A DNA stretch of 64,000 bases from NCBI RefSeq assembly GCF_022869805.1, contig NZ_CP094974.1:4836001-4900000 (forward strand). The letters run 5' to 3'. The notes beneath the pieces were generated by a model. It saw nothing but the letters and a program-made list of their open reading frames with translations. It did not search any database and was not told the origin of the DNA. The translations under genes were made by a program, and so were the position numbers. Numbering within the stretch: the first letter of the stretch is position 1; the number at the start of each line of letters is the position of its first letter. This document shows, piece after piece, positions 11,230 to 43,761 of this stretch. Origin of the DNA: Halosolutus halophilus. GTDB taxonomy: Archaea; Halobacteriota; Halobacteria; Halobacteriales; Natrialbaceae.

Positions 11230-11619
11230 TCACTCGGCGTCCGCCTCGAGCAGTTCGAACAGCGGATCGAAGTCCTCGGGCAACTGGGCGTCGGCTTTCT
11301 CGACGTTCCCCGACGGAACCACCTCGGCGACGAGGGCGACGACCTGCTGGGCCTGATAGTTGGCGTCCGCCCGATCGCCGCCACCGCGCTCGGCGACCCG
11401 ATCGAGGAACTCCTGGTAGTCGAAGCGCTGTCCGTGTTCGGCCTCGGTCAGGTAGCGATCGATCTCCATCGGGAGCGGGCTGGCGAGGTCCGTCGCCTCC
11501 CCTTCCTGGAGACGCTCGCCGAGCGTGGTCAGGACGGCCCGCGTCGCCCGGACGGCCTGTCCGAACTGCGCGTACTCGAGTCTGTGCTGTACCTGTCCGA
11601 CGAAATCTTTGTAGTTCAT
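11230..11619 (-). CDS. DUF2267 domain protein
   Basis: The 129-residue protein begins MNYKDFVGQVQHRLE and has TRAVLTTLGERL, LASPLPMEIDRYLT and FDYQEFLDRVAER. These are the hallmarks of DUF2267, an all-helical domain of unknown biochemical function that often sits beside stress proteins. It is the first gene of a two-gene operon with the methyltransferase. A paralogue lies at 28272 and a C-terminal scrap of another at 28061. Confidence 0.9.
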   Translation of the reverse strand: MNYKDFVGQVQHRLEYAQFGQAVRATRAVLTTLGERLQEGEATDLASPLPMEIDRYLTEAEHGQRFDYQEFLDRVAERGGGDRADANYQAQQVVALVAEVVPSGNVEKADAQLPEDFDPLFELLEADAE

Positions 11620-26280: not shown

Positions 26281-28002
26281 TCAGGGAGCGACGTAGTCGC
26301 ATTCGCCCGCACACTCCTCCTTGAGGGGCGTCTCGCCGAGTACTTGCTCGGGTCTGGCCCCGCTCCGGAAGACGGTGATTCCCTTGACTTCGAGTTCCCG
26401 AGCAGTGAGGAAGACGTCTTTGACGTTCTCGACGGACGCCGATCGTGGCAGGTTCACCGTCTTGCTCACGGCGTTGTCGACGTGTTCCTGGAACGCGGCC
26501 TGAACGCGGAGGTGGCCGTCGGCGGGCACGTCGTGGGCCGTGTGGAACAGCGGTTTCACGTCGTCCGGAATCTCCTCGACGTTCTGGATCGTGGTCCGAT
26601 CGTGGAGGTCCGCCACGAGCTCCTCGGAGTAGAACCCGCGCTCTTTCGCGAGGTCGACGAACCGGTCGTTGACGATTTCCAGTCCCCCCATCACCTGCTT
26701 CGTATAGGCCACGTTGTATATCGGTTCGATACTGGCCGAGCAGCCCGCGATGAGCGAGATCGTCCCCGTAGGGGCGACGGTCGTGGTCGTGGCGTTTCGC
26801 ATCGGCTCCGCCCGAGTGGAGTCCTCCCACTCCGGGAACGGCCCCCGTTCATCCGCCAACTGCCTGGACGCTGCCCACGATTCGTCGTGGATGAACGCCA
26901 TCACCTCGCTTGCGAACTCGACGGCCTCTCGGGAGTAGTACGGGATCCCCAGATCCACGAGCGTGTCGTGAAATCCCATCACTCCCAGCCCCACCTTGCG
27001 GTTCGTCTCCATCAACTCCTCGATCTCGGGGACCGGAAATTCGGACATCTCGATGGTGTCGTCCAGAAAGCGGACGCCCAGGTGGACGGTCTCGCGGAGT
27101 TTGTCCCAGTCGACCGCCTCGCCGTCGGTGTGTCGAGCGAGGTTGATCGAGCCGAGGACGCACGCCTCGTAGGGGAGCAGGGGGACCTCGCCACAGGGGT
27201 TGGTCGCCTCGAGTCGGCCGAGGTGAGGCGTCGGGTTGTGTTCGTTGATCGTGTCGAGAAAGAGAAGCCCCGGATCGCCGGTTTCCCACGCCAGTTCGGC
27301 GACCAGGTCGAGGACGTCGTCAGGATCCGCCTGTCCCACGACCTCGTCCGTCCGCGGATTGACGAGGTCGTAGGGCTCGCCGGCGTCGTATGCCTCCCAG
27401 AACGTCGCGTCCGTCCCCACCGAGAGGTTGAAGTTCCGAAAGGCGTCCGCCCCTTCCTTGGCGGTGACGAACGCCTCGACGTCGGGATGGGTGGCGTCGA
27501 GGACGCCCATGTTCGCACCGCGTCGACGGCCGCCCTGCTTGATCTGCTCGGTGGCCGCGTCGAAGATCCGCATGAAACTCACCGGCCCAGAGGCCACGCC
27601 ACCCGTCTTCTTGACGACGTCTCCCTCGGGCCGGAGATTCGAGAACGAGAATCCGGTGCCGCCGCCGCTCTGGTGGACGAGTGCGGCCTGCTTGAGAGCG
27701 GTGAATATCGCCTCCAGCGAGTCCCCGACCGGCAGGACGAAGCAGGCGGCGAGTTGCTGGAGTTCCGTCCCGGCGTTCATGAGCGTCGGCGAGTTCGGGA
27801 GGAACTCGAGGTTCGTCATCGCTTCGTAGAACTCCTGTTCGGTCGCTTCGACGTCCCCGTCGAACTGTGCCTCTGCCTGCGCGAGGGTTTCTGCCACGCG
27901 ACGGAACATCCCTGCCGGCGTCTCGACGACCTCCCCGTCTTCGTCCCGTCGGAGGTATCGTCGGCGAAGGACCGTCTCGGCGACGGTATCGATCGAGTCC
28001 AT
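26281..28002 (-). CDS. nrdJ: Adenosylcobalamin-dependent (class II) ribonucleotide reductase
   Basis: The ATG at 28002 gives 573 residues of the ribonucleotide reductase catalytic barrel. Key parts are NSPTLMNAG, the first disulfide Cys87 in LAACFVLP, the finger loop NPCGE (about 268-272) with the radical Cys and acid, the partner Cys region YEACVLGS, and PTGTISLIAG. The C-terminal CAGECDY holds the pair that could re-reduce the active site. It needs no oxygen, so it can make deoxynucleotides in anoxia. The protein lacks an ATP cone and is shorter than most class II enzymes, resembling mycobacterial NrdZ in this respect. Confidence 0.92.
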   Translation of the reverse strand: MDSIDTVAETVLRRRYLRRDEDGEVVETPAGMFRRVAETLAQAEAQFDGDVEATEQEFYEAMTNLEFLPNSPTLMNAGTELQQLAACFVLPVGDSLEAIFTALKQAALVHQSGGGTGFSFSNLRPEGDVVKKTGGVASGPVSFMRIFDAATEQIKQGGRRRGANMGVLDATHPDVEAFVTAKEGADAFRNFNLSVGTDATFWEAYDAGEPYDLVNPRTDEVVGQADPDDVLDLVAELAWETGDPGLLFLDTINEHNPTPHLGRLEATNPCGEVPLLPYEACVLGSINLARHTDGEAVDWDKLRETVHLGVRFLDDTIEMSEFPVPEIEELMETNRKVGLGVMGFHDTLVDLGIPYYSREAVEFASEVMAFIHDESWAASRQLADERGPFPEWEDSTRAEPMRNATTTTVAPTGTISLIAGCSASIEPIYNVAYTKQVMGGLEIVNDRFVDLAKERGFYSEELVADLHDRTTIQNVEEIPDDVKPLFHTAHDVPADGHLRVQAAFQEHVDNAVSKTVNLPRSASVENVKDVFLTARELEVKGITVFRSGARPEQVLGETPLKEECAGECDYVAP

Positions 28003-28271: not shown

Positions 28272-28787
28272 TTATTCCGCTCCGCCGTTGGTCGACCCCT
28301 CGTCCGTCGGATCGGCGTCTGGCTGACTCGTCGCGTCGGATTGCGGGCCGCCACCGGCCTGTGCCTCCTCGCCCTCTCCCCACCCGCCAGCGTCGACTAC
28401 TTCGAAGAGTTTGCGCCAGTTCTCGTCGTCTTCGCTCTCGGGCAGCTGGTCGCGGAGTTGCTGGAAGTCGGACGGAGGAACCGCGGTTTCGACGAGGTCG
28501 ACGACGACCCGGGCGTGGTAGGCCGCATCCGATCGATCGACCCCTTCGATCTCGCTGACGCGGTCGACGAACTCCTGCCAGTCGAATCGCTGGCCGTGTT
28601 CGTGGACGGCACCGGACAGGTACCACCTGATTTCGAGCGGGAGCGAGCCGGCGAGGTCGTCGGCGTTCCCCGCGGGGATTCGCTGGCCCAGCGTCATAAG
28701 GGTCGCCCGGATCGCCCGTACTGTTCGGCCGGTATCCGGGAGCTCGAGCCGGTGCTGAACCGTACCGGTGAATTCGTCGAAGTTCAT
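28272..28787 (-). CDS. DUF2267 domain protein with acidic tail
   Basis: The ATG at 28787 gives 171 residues. The DUF2267 core has MNFDEFTGTVQHRLELP, TLMTLGQRI, LAGSLPLEIRWYLSG and FDWQEFVDRVSEIE. A Gly-, Asp- and Gln-rich tail of about 45 residues follows and is probably disordered. It is a paralogue of the protein at 11230. It lies upstream of the ribonucleotide reductase on the same strand, about 270 bases away. Confidence 0.9.
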   Translation of the reverse strand: MNFDEFTGTVQHRLELPDTGRTVRAIRATLMTLGQRIPAGNADDLAGSLPLEIRWYLSGAVHEHGQRFDWQEFVDRVSEIEGVDRSDAAYHARVVVDLVETAVPPSDFQQLRDQLPESEDDENWRKLFEVVDAGGWGEGEEAQAGGGPQSDATSQPDADPTDEGSTNGGAE

Positions 28788-30472: not shown

Positions 30473-31111
30473 ATGCGAGAAACTCGCCGATTCAAAGACC
30501 GGATGGACGCCGGAGAGCAACTCGCGGAGGTACTCCGTGAGCGGGAGGTCGACGCGGATATCGCGCTCGCCATCCCCCGGGGCGGCCTCCCGCTCGGACG
30601 ATCGGTGGCCAACGCGCTCGACGTCCCGCTCGACATCGTCGTCGCGAAGAAGATCGGTGCCCCGGGCAATCCGGAGTACGCCATCGGTGCCGTCGCGAGC
30701 GACGGGAGCGTCTGGCGGAACGAACAGGGATTTCGTGGATCGGGAGCCGACGAGGAGTACTTCGAACGACAGCGCGAGGAGGAAGCAGCGAACGCCCGTC
30801 GGAAGGCCGAACGCTACCGGGGCGATCGATCGGAACCCGACCTGACCGACAAGACCGTGGTCGTCGTGGACGACGGCGTGGCGACGGGATCGACCGTCAG
30901 GGCCTGCCTCAGGAAGCTCAACGAAACGGACGCCGACCGTATCGTGCTGGCAGTCCCAGTCGGCCCACCGGAGACGATCGCCGAACTGGAGGCCGAGGCC
31001 GACGAGGTCGTCTGTCTCGAGACGCCGCGCGGTTTCAGGGGCGTGGGGCAGTTCTACCAGACCTTCGGCCAGGTGACCGACGAGGAGGCGATGGCGTATC
31101 TGGAACGGTAA
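30473..31111 (+). CDS. Phosphoribosyltransferase
   Basis: The 212-residue type I phosphoribosyltransferase has the PRPP loop VVVVDDGVATGST at about 126-138. N-terminal ALAIPRGGLPLG and VAKKIGAPGNPEYAIGAV are typical of the stress-associated, ComF-unlike branch seen in mycobacterial Rv0571c. The substrate base is unknown. It diverges from the hydrolase and has a TATA-like TTATATG about 40 bases upstream. Confidence 0.9.
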   Translation: MRETRRFKDRMDAGEQLAEVLREREVDADIALAIPRGGLPLGRSVANALDVPLDIVVAKKIGAPGNPEYAIGAVASDGSVWRNEQGFRGSGADEEYFERQREEEAANARRKAERYRGDRSEPDLTDKTVVVVDDGVATGSTVRACLRKLNETDADRIVLAVPVGPPETIAELEAEADEVVCLETPRGFRGVGQFYQTFGQVTDEEAMAYLER

Positions 31112-31269
31112 CTGGTATGCGACCAGCATCGTCGGTCGTCTCCTCGATGCCGAGAACGATCGCAACGATAACGACCGTCGGACACGTCCCCTCCAGTAGG
31201 GAACGCACTGATGGCAGCGTCGTCCCGGTGGTATAGCACCCCGATCGATCGAAAAATCTCATACAAATC

Positions 31270-32487
31270 ATGGATATCGCTGACATCGTTTCGAAAGAGT
31301 ACGTCGAATTCACCCCGGAGACGCCCGTCTCGAAGCTCGTCGGTACGTTCGCGGATTCCGACGTCAAGGGCGTCGTGATCCGCGACGACGAGTTCGAGGG
31401 GGTCGTCACCAGGAGACAACTCGCTACCTCGCATCGCCAGCCCAACGAAAAGCTCGGGTCGCTCGTCTGGCACGTGCCTCGGCTCGCGCCGGACGAGGAC
31501 GTCCGCAAAGTGGCACAGCTCATGATCGACAGCGATTCGCAGCTGCTCCCCGTGTTCGAGGGCCGGGAGCTGATCGGCGTCGTCACCGTCGACGCGATCC
31601 TCCGGAAGGTTAAACCGTTCCTCGATGCGGCGACCGTTGCCGAGGCCCACTCCGCCGATCTGGTCTCGGTCGATTCGACGTCAACCCTTGGCAACGCACT
31701 CAACGTCTTCCAGGAGAACCACATCACGCACCTTCCGGTCGTCGAGAATAGCACGGCAGTCGGTATCCTCAGCCTCTACGACGTGACCGGCATCACGGTT
31801 CGGGCCGAGGTGCAGAGCCAGGGTGGCGATGCGGGCGGGACGGATCCGTTCGGGGGCGAAATATCCGACAGTACGGCTCGCTCGCGCCGCGGCGGCTTCG
31901 GCGCCCGGGAGGGTGAGTCCGAGCGGATGCTGGACCTCCCGGTCCGGGACATCATGGTCTCGCCCGTGCGCACGATTCGCCCGGACGAGACGCTCGATAT
32001 CGCGGTCGAAGAGATGTTCGAGATCAACGCGTCGTCGCTGGTCGTCACCGAGAACGGCGATCCCCACGGCATCGTCACGAAGACCGACGTTCTCGACTCG
32101 CTCACGTGGGAGGCCGGCGGGAACCGGGGCGTCCAGGTCTACGGGACCAACCTGATAGACGACGTGACGTACGACGAGATCGTCGCGAAAGTCGAGAAAT
32201 TCGACGACAGGGATCACGGGATGAACGTGCTGGACGCGAAGGTCCACCTCCACGAACACGACGAGACGCGCCGCGGGCGGCCGCTCCTGCTCGCCCGGAT
32301 TCGGCTGCACACCGACCGGGGGCTGTTTATCGCCTCCGGGGAGGGGTACGGCGCGAGTCACGCGATCAACGAGGCGAGCGAGGTTCTGGAGCGCCAGATC
32401 CGCGACGAGAAGACCTACGGCCGGAGCAAGAAGCCCCCGAGCGAGGAGTTCTGGGAGAAACGGTTCGGGTGGCTGCTCGAGGAGTGA
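31270..32487 (+). CDS. Four-CBS-domain protein with C-terminal HPF/S30EA-like domain
   Basis: The 405-residue protein has four CBS repeats (about 1-60, 65-115, 125-180 and 225-285, the last reading LVVTENGDPHGIVTKTDVL). They are separated after the third by a Gly- and Arg-rich linker. Residues about 295-390 have the beta-alpha-beta-beta-beta-alpha order of ribosome hibernation factors: VQVYGTNL, a helix, VLDAKVHLHEH, LLARIRLHTDRG, LFIASGEGYG and a final helix AINEASEVLERQI. I infer an adenylate-sensing ribosome hibernation factor. A paralogue is at 42553. Confidence 0.85.
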   Translation: MDIADIVSKEYVEFTPETPVSKLVGTFADSDVKGVVIRDDEFEGVVTRRQLATSHRQPNEKLGSLVWHVPRLAPDEDVRKVAQLMIDSDSQLLPVFEGRELIGVVTVDAILRKVKPFLDAATVAEAHSADLVSVDSTSTLGNALNVFQENHITHLPVVENSTAVGILSLYDVTGITVRAEVQSQGGDAGGTDPFGGEISDSTARSRRGGFGAREGESERMLDLPVRDIMVSPVRTIRPDETLDIAVEEMFEINASSLVVTENGDPHGIVTKTDVLDSLTWEAGGNRGVQVYGTNLIDDVTYDEIVAKVEKFDDRDHGMNVLDAKVHLHEHDETRRGRPLLLARIRLHTDRGLFIASGEGYGASHAINEASEVLERQIRDEKTYGRSKKPPSEEFWEKRFGWLLEE

Positions 32488-32527: not shown

Positions 32528-32977
32528 TCATCGCACGACGGTCACTGGAACGGTTGCCCGTTCGACGAGCGACTTCGCGACGCTGCCGAGCATCAGCCCC
32601 GCACGCTCCGATCGGCCACGGTGGCCGACGAAGAGCGCGTCGAACCCTTCGGCCTCGGCGTAGGTGGCGATCTCCGTGATCGGATTCCCGTAGAGGAGTA
32701 CAACCTCGACGTCGTGGCCGAGTTCGGCGGCCAGGTCGGACGCGTCGTCGGTGAGGTCCAGGCCTCGCTGTTCGGCGTCTTCGACGCTCTCGAGGATCAG
32801 GCGCTGGTCGGCATCGGAGAGCGACGTGATCGGTTCGGCTCCGCCCTCGTCGTGAGCGGTGGGATCGACCGCGTGGACCACCGTGATCGAGCCGCCCATC
32901 GCGTCCACGATATCGGCGGCGTAGGCGAGTGCGTTCTCGGACTCTTCGGATCCGTCGACGGCTACGAGGGCCTTCAT
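32528..32977 (-). CDS. Universal stress protein (UspA domain)
   Basis: The 149-residue USP starts MKALVAVDGSEESENAL and has GHRGRSERAGLMLGS, a complete nucleotide signature. The insertion around GGAEPITSLSDADQRL differs from other island members. It is convergent with the CBS-HPF gene at 31270, with 40 bases between the stops. Confidence 0.92.
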   Translation of the reverse strand: MKALVAVDGSEESENALAYAADIVDAMGGSITVVHAVDPTAHDEGGAEPITSLSDADQRLILESVEDAEQRGLDLTDDASDLAAELGHDVEVVLLYGNPITEIATYAEAEGFDALFVGHRGRSERAGLMLGSVAKSLVERATVPVTVVR

Positions 32978-33492: not shown

Positions 33493-34398
33493 TCAGTCGA
33501 CGACAGCCACGTCGAACGTGTCGTCCCATCGGTACCGTCGGCCGCCCCAAACGAACGTCGGGCGAACGAGTCCGGCGACGCCGATGATGGGAGCGAGGAC
33601 GAGCGATGGTGCCGCGAACAGCCACGTCCGCCGATCGACGCGGAGCGCGCGGTAGTGCGTGTATGCGAGCACGGTCACACCCACGGCAACCGCGACCGGG
33701 AAGACGAGTCCGACCGCGATGACGGAGAGAAAGAGGGCGAGCGACGCCAGCGTTCTGGTCGGATCGAACCGGTAGAAGATCTTGGCGAACCGGGTTATCC
33801 GCTCGTACGTCGCGCGTGGCCCGCCCGGAACGCTGACCCGGGAGACGAGTTCCCGCGACGCGACGACCTCGTCGACGTACTCGGCGAGCAACGCGTCGTC
33901 CGAGACGGTCCGTCGCAGGTCTTCGACGTACGCATCGACGTCGACGTCGCGCCGATCGAACGTGACGCCGCCACCCCACGGCACCCAGTTGGATCGATCG
34001 ACCACGAACGAGCCGACGACGAGACACGGGGGTTCGAACAGTTTGAACGGGTATTCCTCGCTGGTAAAGACGGGAATCGCCGTTACCGTGCCGTGTTCCT
34101 CCCCGAGGCGTTTGATCGTCGCCAGCCAGTCCTCGTCGCGATCGACGTCGTCGTCGGTCAACACGATCCGGTCCTGAGAGGCGTGCTCGAGGCCGACCGC
34201 GACGGCGTTTGCTTTTCCCGAGCAGCCCTCGGGCTCGCCCGCGACGAGCAGTTCGGCCTCGTCGGGGCGGTCGGCGGTCGCGACCGGATCGTCGTCGCTG
34301 TCACAGACGACCAGGAGCTCGTCGTCGGCCTCGAGCTGACGGGCCAACTGCTCGCACGACGGCGTCCACTCGAACGTCGGCAGGATGATGCTCGCCAT
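33493..34398 (-). CDS. Glycosyltransferase family 2-like membrane protein
   Basis: The ATG at 34398 gives 301 residues. The N-terminal domain has IILPTFEWT, DELLVVCDSDDDP, SGKANAVAVGL and VLTDDDVDRDEDWL, with the DDD metal-binding motif of GT-A enzymes. A C-terminal pair or trio of helices (LASLALFLSVIAVGLVF; WLFAAPSLVLAPIIGV) anchors it. It should transfer a sugar at the inner membrane face. It is directly downstream of TreT on the same strand. Confidence 0.85.
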   Translation of the reverse strand: MASIILPTFEWTPSCEQLARQLEADDELLVVCDSDDDPVATADRPDEAELLVAGEPEGCSGKANAVAVGLEHASQDRIVLTDDDVDRDEDWLATIKRLGEEHGTVTAIPVFTSEEYPFKLFEPPCLVVGSFVVDRSNWVPWGGGVTFDRRDVDVDAYVEDLRRTVSDDALLAEYVDEVVASRELVSRVSVPGGPRATYERITRFAKIFYRFDPTRTLASLALFLSVIAVGLVFPVAVAVGVTVLAYTHYRALRVDRRTWLFAAPSLVLAPIIGVAGLVRPTFVWGGRRYRWDDTFDVAVVD

Positions 34399-34512: not shown

Positions 34513-35757
34513 TCACGGATCGCGGTCTCCGAGTTCGGCGAAGACCTCGAGACAGTCCACGAGCTGGCGCGGCAGCAGGAACCCGTCACGAACGTGAGCG
34601 CGCCCGTTCCGACCGAACGACGTCCGTCGCTCCTCGTCGTCGAGGAGTCGTTCGACTCGCCGTGCGACGCCCCCGACGTCGTCCGGCGCTACGAGGTAGC
34701 CGTTCCGGCCGTCCTCGATCTGCAGCGGGATGCCGCCGGCGGTCGACCCGACGACCGGTGTGCGCTTCCAGAGCGCCTCGGAGACGACGAGGCCGAACCC
34801 CTCCCGTATCGATTTCTGGACGACGACGTCCGATCGGCGCTGCAGGACGTTCACGGCCGTATCCGGGAGCTCCGACAGGACGAACACGTCCGGGTCGTCC
34901 GCCGCCGCAGCCGCAACCCGATCGTATACCGCCGCCCCTTCCGGGTCGTCGTCGGCCATGCTGCCGACGAGCGCTAGCTGAGCGTCCGGCACCCGAGAGC
35001 GGACTCGCCGGTAGGCCTCGAGCGTGCCGAACTGGTCTTTCCACGGGTCGAACCGGGACACCTGCGTCACGAGCGGTGCGTCCAGCGAGATCGGGGCGAG
35101 GCGGTCGCGTTCGGTCGCCACCGTCGACTCGTCCAGGTCCGCGTTCTTCGCCGCCAGGGGATCGATCGACGGATGGACGACGCTCGAGGACGGAACGGCG
35201 ATCCCGTCCTCGTAGACGGACCGGCTGAAGACCGCGTGATCGACGCGCTCGATGTACTCGGCGACGAACGCGAGGTGCTCCCGGGTCGGATCGCTCAGGT
35301 CGAGGTGACAGCGCCAGACGATGGCGGCGTTCGGAATCGCCTCCGCCAGCGTCTCGACCATCCCCAGGGGCTGTGGATCGTGCAGCACGACGACGTCGTA
35401 CTCGTCGGCGATCGCGGCCGCGTTTCGCCCCGTTACCGCGCGATAGGTCGCTTTCATCTCGTCGGTCAACCGCGTCCCGCTGCCCTGGAGTCCGTTGTGA
35501 AGGGCTTTGGTCACCTCGAAGAAGGACTCGTCCGCCTCCATCACGTACCAGTCGGTGTCGACCCCGAGGTCGTTGCACAGCGGAACGATCGAGCGGAGGA
35601 GTTCCGCGACGCCGCCGCCAGTCGCCGTCGAGTTCACGTGGAGGATCCGGACGTCGTCGAGGGCCTCGGCGAGCGTGCGGAGCCGCTGGAGCCGATCGGG
35701 ACCCGTCACGGCGTCGTACGCCGCTATCGACCGGTCCGCGAGGGACGGTGAGTGCAT
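34513..35757 (-). CDS. treT: Trehalose synthase (TreT-type GT4)
   Basis: The 414-residue GT-B enzyme has ILHVNSTATGGGVAELL at the N-terminus, VVLHDPQPLGMV, WRCHLDLSDP, VTQVSRFDPWKDQFG and the C-terminal EGFGLVVSE (E-x7-E). These match TreT, which makes trehalose from a nucleoside-diphosphate glucose and glucose. Trehalose is a stress solute, which suits an osmotic or desiccation role. A haloarchaeal GT4 of the same group but different product cannot be excluded. Confidence 0.85.
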   Translation of the reverse strand: MHSPSLADRSIAAYDAVTGPDRLQRLRTLAEALDDVRILHVNSTATGGGVAELLRSIVPLCNDLGVDTDWYVMEADESFFEVTKALHNGLQGSGTRLTDEMKATYRAVTGRNAAAIADEYDVVVLHDPQPLGMVETLAEAIPNAAIVWRCHLDLSDPTREHLAFVAEYIERVDHAVFSRSVYEDGIAVPSSSVVHPSIDPLAAKNADLDESTVATERDRLAPISLDAPLVTQVSRFDPWKDQFGTLEAYRRVRSRVPDAQLALVGSMADDDPEGAAVYDRVAAAAADDPDVFVLSELPDTAVNVLQRRSDVVVQKSIREGFGLVVSEALWKRTPVVGSTAGGIPLQIEDGRNGYLVAPDDVGGVARRVERLLDDEERRTSFGRNGRAHVRDGFLLPRQLVDCLEVFAELGDRDP

Positions 35758-39430: not shown

Positions 39431-40801
39431 CTACTCCGAAATCCGGGACTCGATCGTCGCCCGCAGTTCGTCCGTCTCCTCCCGAAGTCCGTCGCTGATC
39501 CGGACGTCGTAGGGTTCGGGATCTTCGATTCGCCGGTGTTCCTCCGGCAGTTTCTGGCGCTGCTCTCGGGCAGTCTCCCGTATTTCGTCGAGAGCAGGGA
39601 TCTCGTAGCTTCGATCGCCGTCTTCGATGACGGTGACCAGTTGCTCCTCCCCGGGAGACTCCTCGCCACGGAGACCGAGAACGTCGCCGGTGTACCGGCC
39701 GTCGGATTCGATCCGGCGCACGCTTTTTGCCCCCGGATAGGTCACCTTGCCTTTCGAGAGCTTCATCGACGGCTGCATCTCGCCGTCGCGTTCGACCGCC
39801 ACGAGTTTGTAGACGCCCTCGACTTTGGGGGCGTCCGTGCTCGTCACCAGGGCGGTCCCCGGCCCGAAGCCCGCCCCGACGCCGTCGCGATCGAAGAACT
39901 CGTGGATGGCGTACTCGTCCATGCCGGAGGAGATGAACTGGTCGATCTCCGGGATGACCTCGTCGACGGCCTTCGAGAGCGCCGGGAGATCGCCCGAGTC
40001 GAGGCGAACGCCGCGGAGGTCCACCTCCCTGGTCTCGGCGACGTCCTTCGCGATCTCCGCCCCCCTGACGGTGTCGTAGGTGTCGATCAGGAGGACGCTC
40101 TCGTCTCCGTACTCGTCGACGAACGCCTCGAACGCGTCGCGTTCGTGTTCGAAATTCTGGACCCACGAGTGGGCCATCGTTCCCGAGACGGGGATGTCGA
40201 ACGCCTCTCCCGCGGCGACGTTCGAGGTGGCGTCGAAGCCGCCGATGTACGCGGCCCGAGCGGCCTTCATGGCGGCGTCGGTGCCGTGGGCGCGTCGGGA
40301 GCCGAAGTCGACCAGTCGCTGGCCGTCCCCCTCGCGATCGATCACGTCCCGCATCCGGCTCGCTTTCGTCGCGATGAGCGACTGGTAGCCGACCTGGTTG
40401 ATCAGTGCGGTCTCGAGGAGCTGGGCCTGCAGGATGGGCGCCGTCACTTCGAGCAACGGTTCGTTCGGGAACACCAGCGTCCCTTCGGGCAGCGCGCGTA
40501 CCTCGCCGGTGAACTCGAAATCGGCCAGGTACGACAGGAACGCGTCGTCGAATCCCTGCTCGGTCAGGTACTCGATCGCTCGCTCCCCGAACGAGAGGGT
40601 TTCGACGTAGTGGATCGCCTGCGCTACTCCCGCGGCCACCATGTAACCTCGATTCGGCGGCAGATCGCGGACGAAGAGGCTGAACGTCGCTCTCGGGTTG
40701 TGGTCCTGTTCGTGGTAGGCCTGCATCATCCGCAACTCGTAGAGGTCGGTGAACAGCGGGAGGTTCTGCTCCGTCAGGTAGCCGAAGGTCGTCTCGGACA
40801 T
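39431..40801 (-). CDS. pncB: Nicotinate phosphoribosyltransferase
   Basis: The ATG at 40801 gives 456 residues. It begins LPLFTDLYELRMMQAYHE, has FGSRRAHGTDAA, GTMAHSWV with the phosphorylated His, LIDTYDTVRG and RLDSGDL, and GFGPGTALVTS. These define NAPRTase, which makes nicotinate mononucleotide from nicotinate and PRPP in the NAD salvage pathway. The gene ends in a charged helical tail. Its mycobacterial counterpart PncB2 lies in the dormancy regulon. Confidence 0.93.
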   Translation of the reverse strand: MSETTFGYLTEQNLPLFTDLYELRMMQAYHEQDHNPRATFSLFVRDLPPNRGYMVAAGVAQAIHYVETLSFGERAIEYLTEQGFDDAFLSYLADFEFTGEVRALPEGTLVFPNEPLLEVTAPILQAQLLETALINQVGYQSLIATKASRMRDVIDREGDGQRLVDFGSRRAHGTDAAMKAARAAYIGGFDATSNVAAGEAFDIPVSGTMAHSWVQNFEHERDAFEAFVDEYGDESVLLIDTYDTVRGAEIAKDVAETREVDLRGVRLDSGDLPALSKAVDEVIPEIDQFISSGMDEYAIHEFFDRDGVGAGFGPGTALVTSTDAPKVEGVYKLVAVERDGEMQPSMKLSKGKVTYPGAKSVRRIESDGRYTGDVLGLRGEESPGEEQLVTVIEDGDRSYEIPALDEIRETAREQRQKLPEEHRRIEDPEPYDVRISDGLREETDELRATIESRISE

Positions 40802-42552: not shown

Positions 42553-43761
42553 ATGAACGTTCGCGAAATCGTTGCCGACGAGTTCGAGACGTACGACGAG
42601 TCGACGCCGGTGTCGAAACTCCGCGGCGCGTTCGAGGAGACCGGTCAGCAGACGCTGTTGATCGCCCGGGACGGCGCGTTCGAGGGGATCGTCACTCGGC
42701 GGGACGTCATCTCGTCCCACCAGAAGACCTCCCGGAAGGCGGCGTCGCTCGTCCGCCCGGTCCCGACGATCGGTCGCGACGAGGACGTCCGAGAGGTCGC
42801 GCGGCTCATGATCGCCGGCGACACCAGGGTCCTTCCGGTGCTCGAGGGCGACGACCTCGCCGGTGTCGTCCGTGCGGACGACCTCCTGGAGCAGGTCCAG
42901 CCGTACCTGTCGGTGCTCGCGGTCGACGACGTCGCGACGAGAGAGGTCGTCACCGTGCGCCCGGACGAGTCGCTGGGTGCGGCGCTCTCGACGTTCCGAA
43001 CCGAGCGCATCCAGCACCTGCCCGTCACCGAATCCGGGTCCGACGGGGTCGTCGGCATCGTGAGTCTCGCCGACGTCCTCGAGTTCGTCACGCGGGAACT
43101 CCAGCGGTCGCAGGGCGGCGATCCGGCGGCCAACGTGGACGCCGCGTCCGGCGGCCACCACGGCGGGTTCGGCGCCCGGGAGGGCGAGAGCGACGACCTG
43201 CTCAGCCTGCCGGTGCGTAACGTGATGGTCGAGACCCTCGGAACGGCACGGGCGAGCGAGACGATCGACGAGACGCTCGCGACGATGGTCGAGCACGGGG
43301 CCTCCTCGTCGATCGTTCTCGACGAGGACGGCAACCTCGACGGGATCGTCACGAAGACGGACCTGCTCGAGTCGCTGACCTGGACCGACGAGGGACGGCT
43401 CCCGATCCAGGTGTACGGCGCGGACCTCCTGACGGACCTCTCCCGATCGGAACTGGCCGATCGGATCGAGGCGGTCGCGGGGAAGTACGAGGACATGCGC
43501 GTCCTCGAGGCCAAGGTCCACCTCCAGAAGCACACCGAGCAACTCCGGGGCGTTCCCCTGCTGCTCGCCCGGGTTCGCCTCTACACCGACAAGGGGCTGT
43601 TCGTTGCCTCCGGTGAGGGGTACGGTGACGGCCACGCCGTGTCGCTCGCCCTGAACGCGGTCGAACGCCAGATCCTCGAGGGGAAGACCCACGCCCTGAA
43701 CGAGAGGACCGGCGACGACGCGGACGTCGCCAAGATGTACGGCTGGTGGCTCAGCGAGTAG
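42553..43761 (+). CDS. Four-CBS-domain protein with C-terminal HPF/S30EA-like domain
   Basis: The ATG at 42553 gives 402 residues that match the protein at 31270 along its whole length. CBS repeats include GAFEGIVTRRDV, VLPVLEGDDLAGVV, HLPVTESGSD...GIVSLADVL and IVLDEDGNLDGIVTKTDLL. The HPF-like end reads IQVYGADLL, then VLEAKVHLQKH, LLARVRLYTDKG, LFVASGEGYG and ALNAVERQIL. The TATA-like GGTATACC lies about 30 bases upstream. Two such factors in one island suggest different cues or ribosome states. Confidence 0.85.
   Translation: MNVREIVADEFETYDESTPVSKLRGAFEETGQQTLLIARDGAFEGIVTRRDVISSHQKTSRKAASLVRPVPTIGRDEDVREVARLMIAGDTRVLPVLEGDDLAGVVRADDLLEQVQPYLSVLAVDDVATREVVTVRPDESLGAALSTFRTERIQHLPVTESGSDGVVGIVSLADVLEFVTRELQRSQGGDPAANVDAASGGHHGGFGAREGESDDLLSLPVRNVMVETLGTARASETIDETLATMVEHGASSSIVLDEDGNLDGIVTKTDLLESLTWTDEGRLPIQVYGADLLTDLSRSELADRIEAVAGKYEDMRVLEAKVHLQKHTEQLRGVPLLLARVRLYTDKGLFVASGEGYGDGHAVSLALNAVERQILEGKTHALNERTGDDADVAKMYGWWLSE

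Follow-up and report, generated by a model that had tools for sequence, protein, structure and literature searches.

A HibA-type protein with an extended CBS3-CBS4 loop, encoded among universal stress protein genes in Halosolutus halophilus

An open reading frame (ORF) at 31270-32487 (+) in a 64,000-nucleotide stretch of the Halosolutus halophilus genome (the window) most probably encodes a haloarchaeal HibA, a ribosome-hibernation factor. This is the best explanation of the data as a whole, and we put its probability at about 0.93. The paper on HibA of Pyrococcus abyssi (9sr9) appeared in Nat Commun on 27 April 2026 (PMC13324472); the protein consists of four CBS domains and an HPF/RaiA domain and is present in 47% of archaeal genomes (PMC13324472). 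An initial annotation of the window had proposed a CBS quartet fused to a ribosome-hibernation-like domain. That architecture is right, but it belongs to a protein type known beforehand, and with HibA in print since April 2026 the idea is not novel. The finding confirms, starting from raw sequence, a recently found archaeal mode of ribosome storage. We established the architecture, fold, orthology, clade, loop, and gene neighborhood of the protein; the extended loop and the island setting are the parts worth following up.

Domain architecture and fold

The ORF encodes 405 amino acids. Its ATG start is supported by the orthologues, which begin at the same Met. Pfam detects four CBS stretches (E = 2.5e-34), and the CBS module (CBS1 to CBS4, residues 1-284; 31270-32121, +) is further supported by motif counts and fold matches. 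It is followed by an HPF/RaiA (S30AE) domain (residues 285-385; 32122-32424, +), identified from PF02482, AlphaFold, Foldseek, and VIA-align. Residues 303-382 match PF02482 (Ribosomal_S30AE), for which the gathering cutoff is 23.7 bits. In a scan of the whole protein this match falls just under the cutoff (E = 2.5e-4; 22.1 bits); a scan restricted to the C-terminal 111 residues places it above (E = 3.1e-5; 25.1 bits). In a search of the whole genome, this ORF gave the only PF02482 match above the cutoff (24.9 bits). The combination of four CBS repeats with an S30AE/HPF domain is far beyond chance. Against TIGR00741, the equivalog model for bacterial HPF/YfiA, the protein scores 15.5 bits versus a cutoff of 40.9; judged by this score, the fold is related to that of the bacterial equivalog but the protein is not itself one. 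Four other candidate identities from NCBIfam (PrdR, IMPDH, HhpR, and the DS11 antiphage protein) were rejected, as they match the CBS part only and score far under their cutoffs.

A full-length AlphaFold model built with 39 homologues was of moderate quality only (pLDDT, 75.3; pTM, 0.57). Modeled alone, the C-terminal domain reached a pLDDT of 81.6, with strands at residues 5-8, 37-51, 54-65, and 68-77 of the domain and helices at 18-26 and 79-102, i.e., the order beta-alpha-beta3-alpha. The top Foldseek matches to this model were chloroplast pY/HPF, Thermus YfiA, and E. coli HPF; mycobacterial RafH ranked lower. In VIA-align, HPF from the E. coli hibernating ribosome (6h4n_x) aligned over 94 residues with a Z score of 12.0 and a root mean square deviation of 2.6, and Thermus YfiA (4y4o) aligned over 96 residues with a Z score of 11.8. 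The bacterial HPF, RaiA, and YfiA proteins and mycobacterial RafH thus have the same fold as the C-terminal domain, without a CBS module.

The S30AE-like fold might instead be a common alpha/beta arrangement, such as that of double-stranded RNA-binding domains (dsRBDs), in a CBS-regulated transcription factor or transporter regulator that acts off the ribosome. The CM-3 family of CBS modules does consist of transcription regulators, and the dsRBDs of Dicer and Staufen align to the C-terminal model with Z scores of 7 to 7.8. Those alignments cover only about 70 residues, however, whereas HPF, YfiA, and RaiA align across about 95 residues with Z scores of 10 to 12, and an orthologue of the protein is a chain in ribosome entries (see below). 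We therefore rejected the likeness to dsRBDs and consider an off-ribosome regulator very improbable. Structure prediction, one of the checks suggested in the initial annotation, yields a model that matches HPF, YfiA, and RaiA, and an unrelated fold is discounted because these matches stand well above those to dsRBDs. Pfam, AlphaFold, Foldseek, and VIA-align together bear out the fusion of a CBS quartet to an S30AE/HPF fold.

In structure searches, the CBS part resembles four-CBS proteins of the AMPK-gamma type. It also matches the ribosome-bound CBS factors SriA to SriD of Methanosarcina acetivorans and Dri of Pyrobaculum calidifontis (Z = 21 to 24), which have the CBS-module fold in common with the ORF protein. 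The likeness ends there: in the Sri chains that were matched, the alignment is confined to the CBS part, and Dri consists of two CBS modules, whereas the ORF protein has one such module fused to an HPF/RaiA domain.

Orthology to HibA and nucleotide binding

Among PDB sequences searched with phmmer, P. abyssi HibA (9sr9_H) matches the ORF protein over its full length, including both halves (E = 1.5e-29), and a profile of the C-terminal domain matches characterized HibA with an E value of 6.6e-15. Identity between the two proteins is about 26%. They have the same domain order and similar lengths (392 versus 405 amino acids), and a CBS3-CBS4 loop is present in both. In contrast to the P. abyssi gene, the ORF lies in an island of universal stress protein (Usp) genes, and H. 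halophilus has two further copies, one at a distance of 10 kb and another, of core type, elsewhere in the genome.

A much closer relative is found in ribosome entries. The chain 9l96_a, named as a CBS domain-containing protein, matches residues 1-404 (E = 3.1e-198) with 72.5% identity across 404 amino acids. This orthologue is full length, comes from a different species, has the same loop motif, and is present in four PDB entries (9l96, 9l98, 9l9c, and 9l9v). The uL2 protein of the H. halophilus genome matches the uL2 common to entries 9l94 to 9l9v (E = 2e-132), and the four entries are therefore haloarchaeal ribosome entries that contain an orthologue of the ORF protein; the identity of 9l96 as a ribosome entry rests on this uL2 sequence match. 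The entry is absent among the structure-search matches listed, and our literature search found no paper describing it. A haloarchaeal protein of the same architecture, HVO_2384 of Haloferax volcanii, has been reported to copurify with a Pat2 variant (PMC12607858).

The HibA family silences ribosomes. The C-terminal domain of HibA sits in the 30S mRNA/tRNA channel, with the CBS module located at the peptidyl-transferase center (PTC), uL5, or the L1 stalk, and HibA inhibits in vitro translation (PMC13324472). Deletion of the gene in Thermococcus barophilus lowers stationary-phase 70S ribosomes by about 60% and delays regrowth (PMC13324472). Together with the orthologue chain in haloarchaeal ribosome entries, these properties of the family support the hibernation role put forward in the initial annotation. 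By analogy with the P. abyssi and T. barophilus proteins, the H. halophilus protein would act on the ribosome in the same manner: its HPF/RaiA domain would lodge in the 30S mRNA/tRNA channel while the four-CBS module would occupy the tRNA sites of the 50S subunit, so that idle 70S ribosomes would be blocked and protected in stress and freed when growth resumes.

The nucleotide-binding motif S/T-x-x-D is kept only in CBS3 (S168..D171) and CBS4 (T270..D273) of the ORF protein, a restriction also seen in P. abyssi HibA. Among 55 proteins of the clade to which the ORF protein belongs (A-type; see below), the motif is present in CBS3 of 54 and in CBS4 of all. It is likewise present in CBS3 and CBS4 of all core proteins, and it is mostly lost from CBS1 and CBS2. 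This retention agrees with the single nucleotide site of P. abyssi HibA, which lies at the CBS3/CBS4 interface, where ATP binds (PMC13324472). Judging from the motif, the same interface in the ORF protein probably binds AMP, ADP, or ATP.

The initial annotation had gone further, suggesting that nucleotide sensing is coupled directly to ribosome silencing within one polypeptide; on this reading, the adenylate state read by the CBS module would itself turn silencing on or off. The near-universal CBS3/CBS4 motif and the affinities of the P. abyssi module (Kd of 12 µM for AMP, 65 µM for ADP, and 113 µM for ATP [PMC13324472]) agree with the sensing part of this idea. Direct control of silencing fares less well: the ribosome-bound conformations of P. 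abyssi HibA are largely unchanged by AMP or ATP, and its native complexes are without nucleotide (PMC13324472). Because these complexes are nucleotide-free and neither nucleotide clearly changes binding, direct coupling is plausible but unproven, and we regard it as doubtful.

A separate clade with an extended loop

A search of 59 genomes of the order gave core HibA, an A-type clade, and other accessory clades. In a quick tree of 91 proteins that leaves several deep forks open, the A-type clade (55 rows; 100% SH-aLRT) groups the ORF protein with the 9l96 chain. The core clade (22 rows; 100% SH-aLRT) includes the third HibA copy of the H. halophilus genome (G000:C1:2500386-2501483). The second copy, at 42553-43761 (+), about 10 kb downstream of the first, encodes 402 amino acids with 44% identity to it and belongs to neither clade; its C-terminal domain is not called by Pfam at an E value of 1e-3. 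A single haloarchaeal genome therefore has three copies of hibA, and two of these share a stress island, separated by about 10 kb.

The A-type proteins are distinguished by the segment between CBS3 and CBS4. In the ORF protein, the extended loop comprises 43 residues (180-222; 31807-31935, +) with the motif SQGG...GG[FY]GxREGE, and it is delimited by alignment, motif counts, and low pLDDT at residues 180-218 of the full-length model. The whole CBS3-CBS4 segment (residues 172-222 of the ORF protein) measures 51 residues in 47 of 55 A-type proteins, compared to 26 or 27 residues in core proteins and 26 in P. abyssi HibA. The motif GG[FY]GxREGE is a feature of the A-type proteins, being present in 55/55 of them and in 0/22 core proteins. 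Mean identity within the A-type clade is 0.91 for the motif stretch, 0.80 for the CBS body, and 0.83 for the HPF domain. In the alignment, the loop occupies the position of the PTC loop of P. abyssi HibA (residues 190-207). The loop is thus conserved, extended, and placed where that of a relative touches the PTC, which suggests that it is functional; by the same analogy, it probably reaches the PTC.

A universal stress protein island

The A-type hibA gene of H. halophilus lies among genes for Usps. A PF00582 family search of the genome, from which Usp density was taken, gave 94 matches; 24 of these are in the 64-kb window, scattered over 8926-60956, compared to about 1.2 expected from its length. 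A Usp gene neighboring the ORF, at 32528-32977 (-), matches PF00582 with an E value of 1.5e-30. Across the Natrialbaceae, Usp genes were found within about 10 kb of 25 of 26 A-type loci (4.65 per 20 kb), whereas core hibA loci had none nearby (0/21). The link is weaker beyond the Natrialbaceae, with Usp genes near 11 of 22 A-type loci of other families (1.15 per 20 kb) and near 3 of 7 further loci. Our literature searches did not find a description of such an island setting among stress-protein genes for a HibA copy, or of haloarchaea with a core HibA and a separate A-type clade with a long loop.

The A-type protein, as a member of an accessory clade distinct from core HibA, is probably deployed in stress jointly with the neighboring Usps, as we infer from their proximity. 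It may even be a specialized stress-island hibernation factor, with an action or timing unlike that of core HibA and a long loop that plugs the PTC. Its supported separate clade, with the 9l96 chain inside, its loop segment about twice the length of that in core HibA with an invariant motif, and the association with Usp genes in the Natrialbaceae all argue for specialization. The weaker island link in other families argues against it, as does P. abyssi HibA, which already has a PTC loop at the same place; the A-type action may therefore be the same. On balance, we hold specialization to be a tentative possibility with less than even odds. If the island copies are specialized, haloarchaea would be a genetically workable system for asking what need a cell has for more than one ribosome plug and whether the timing of their use is set by adenylate binding or by the long loop.

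Other genes near the ORF encode a phosphoribosyltransferase-domain protein (30473-31111, +), a homologue of which lies near 42% of A-type hibA loci; an adenosylcobalamin-dependent ribonucleotide reductase (26281-28002, -; TIGR02504, 684 bits, above the cutoff); a nicotinate phosphoribosyltransferase (39431-40801, -); a DLH-like hydrolase; and PNPOx-like flavoproteins. The mycobacterial DosR regulon lists Usps, YfiA-like factors, NrdZ, and pncB2, and mycobacterial NrdZ is described as similar to archaeal NrdJ (PMC4428469). The parallel in gene kinds between the HibA/Usp neighborhood and this dormancy regulon is only a lead. A broader scheme would divide haloarchaeal HibA into two functional kinds, core and Usp-island accessory, the latter with a loop deeper in the PTC and a part in a programmed dormancy response that resembles the DosR regulon in its gene content; we consider this rather unlikely as it stands.

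We searched for a common regulator site across the island and found none. A conserved, GRGAAYGACCNNCGRGTAYTTG-like promoter-region element occurs about 80 to 105 bp before the start of many A-type hibA genes, with 28 of 47 upstream regions scoring at least 13/20; H. halophilus has a weak copy at 31167-31188 (+) that scores 13/20. As an island-wide box this element was rejected: strong matches are confined to the region upstream of hibA, and the element therefore defines no regulon. A near-palindrome, GGTGGTATAGCACC, at 31227-31240 was rejected as an operator candidate, as it was not seen upstream of orthologues.

Two further sets of genes were observed in the island. Two DUF2267 proteins are encoded at 11230-11619 and 28272-28787, both on the minus strand, and homologues lie near 40% of A-type hibA loci. 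A TreT-like trehalose-synthase glycosyltransferase gene (34513-35757, -) adjoins a family 21 glycosyltransferase gene (33493-34398).
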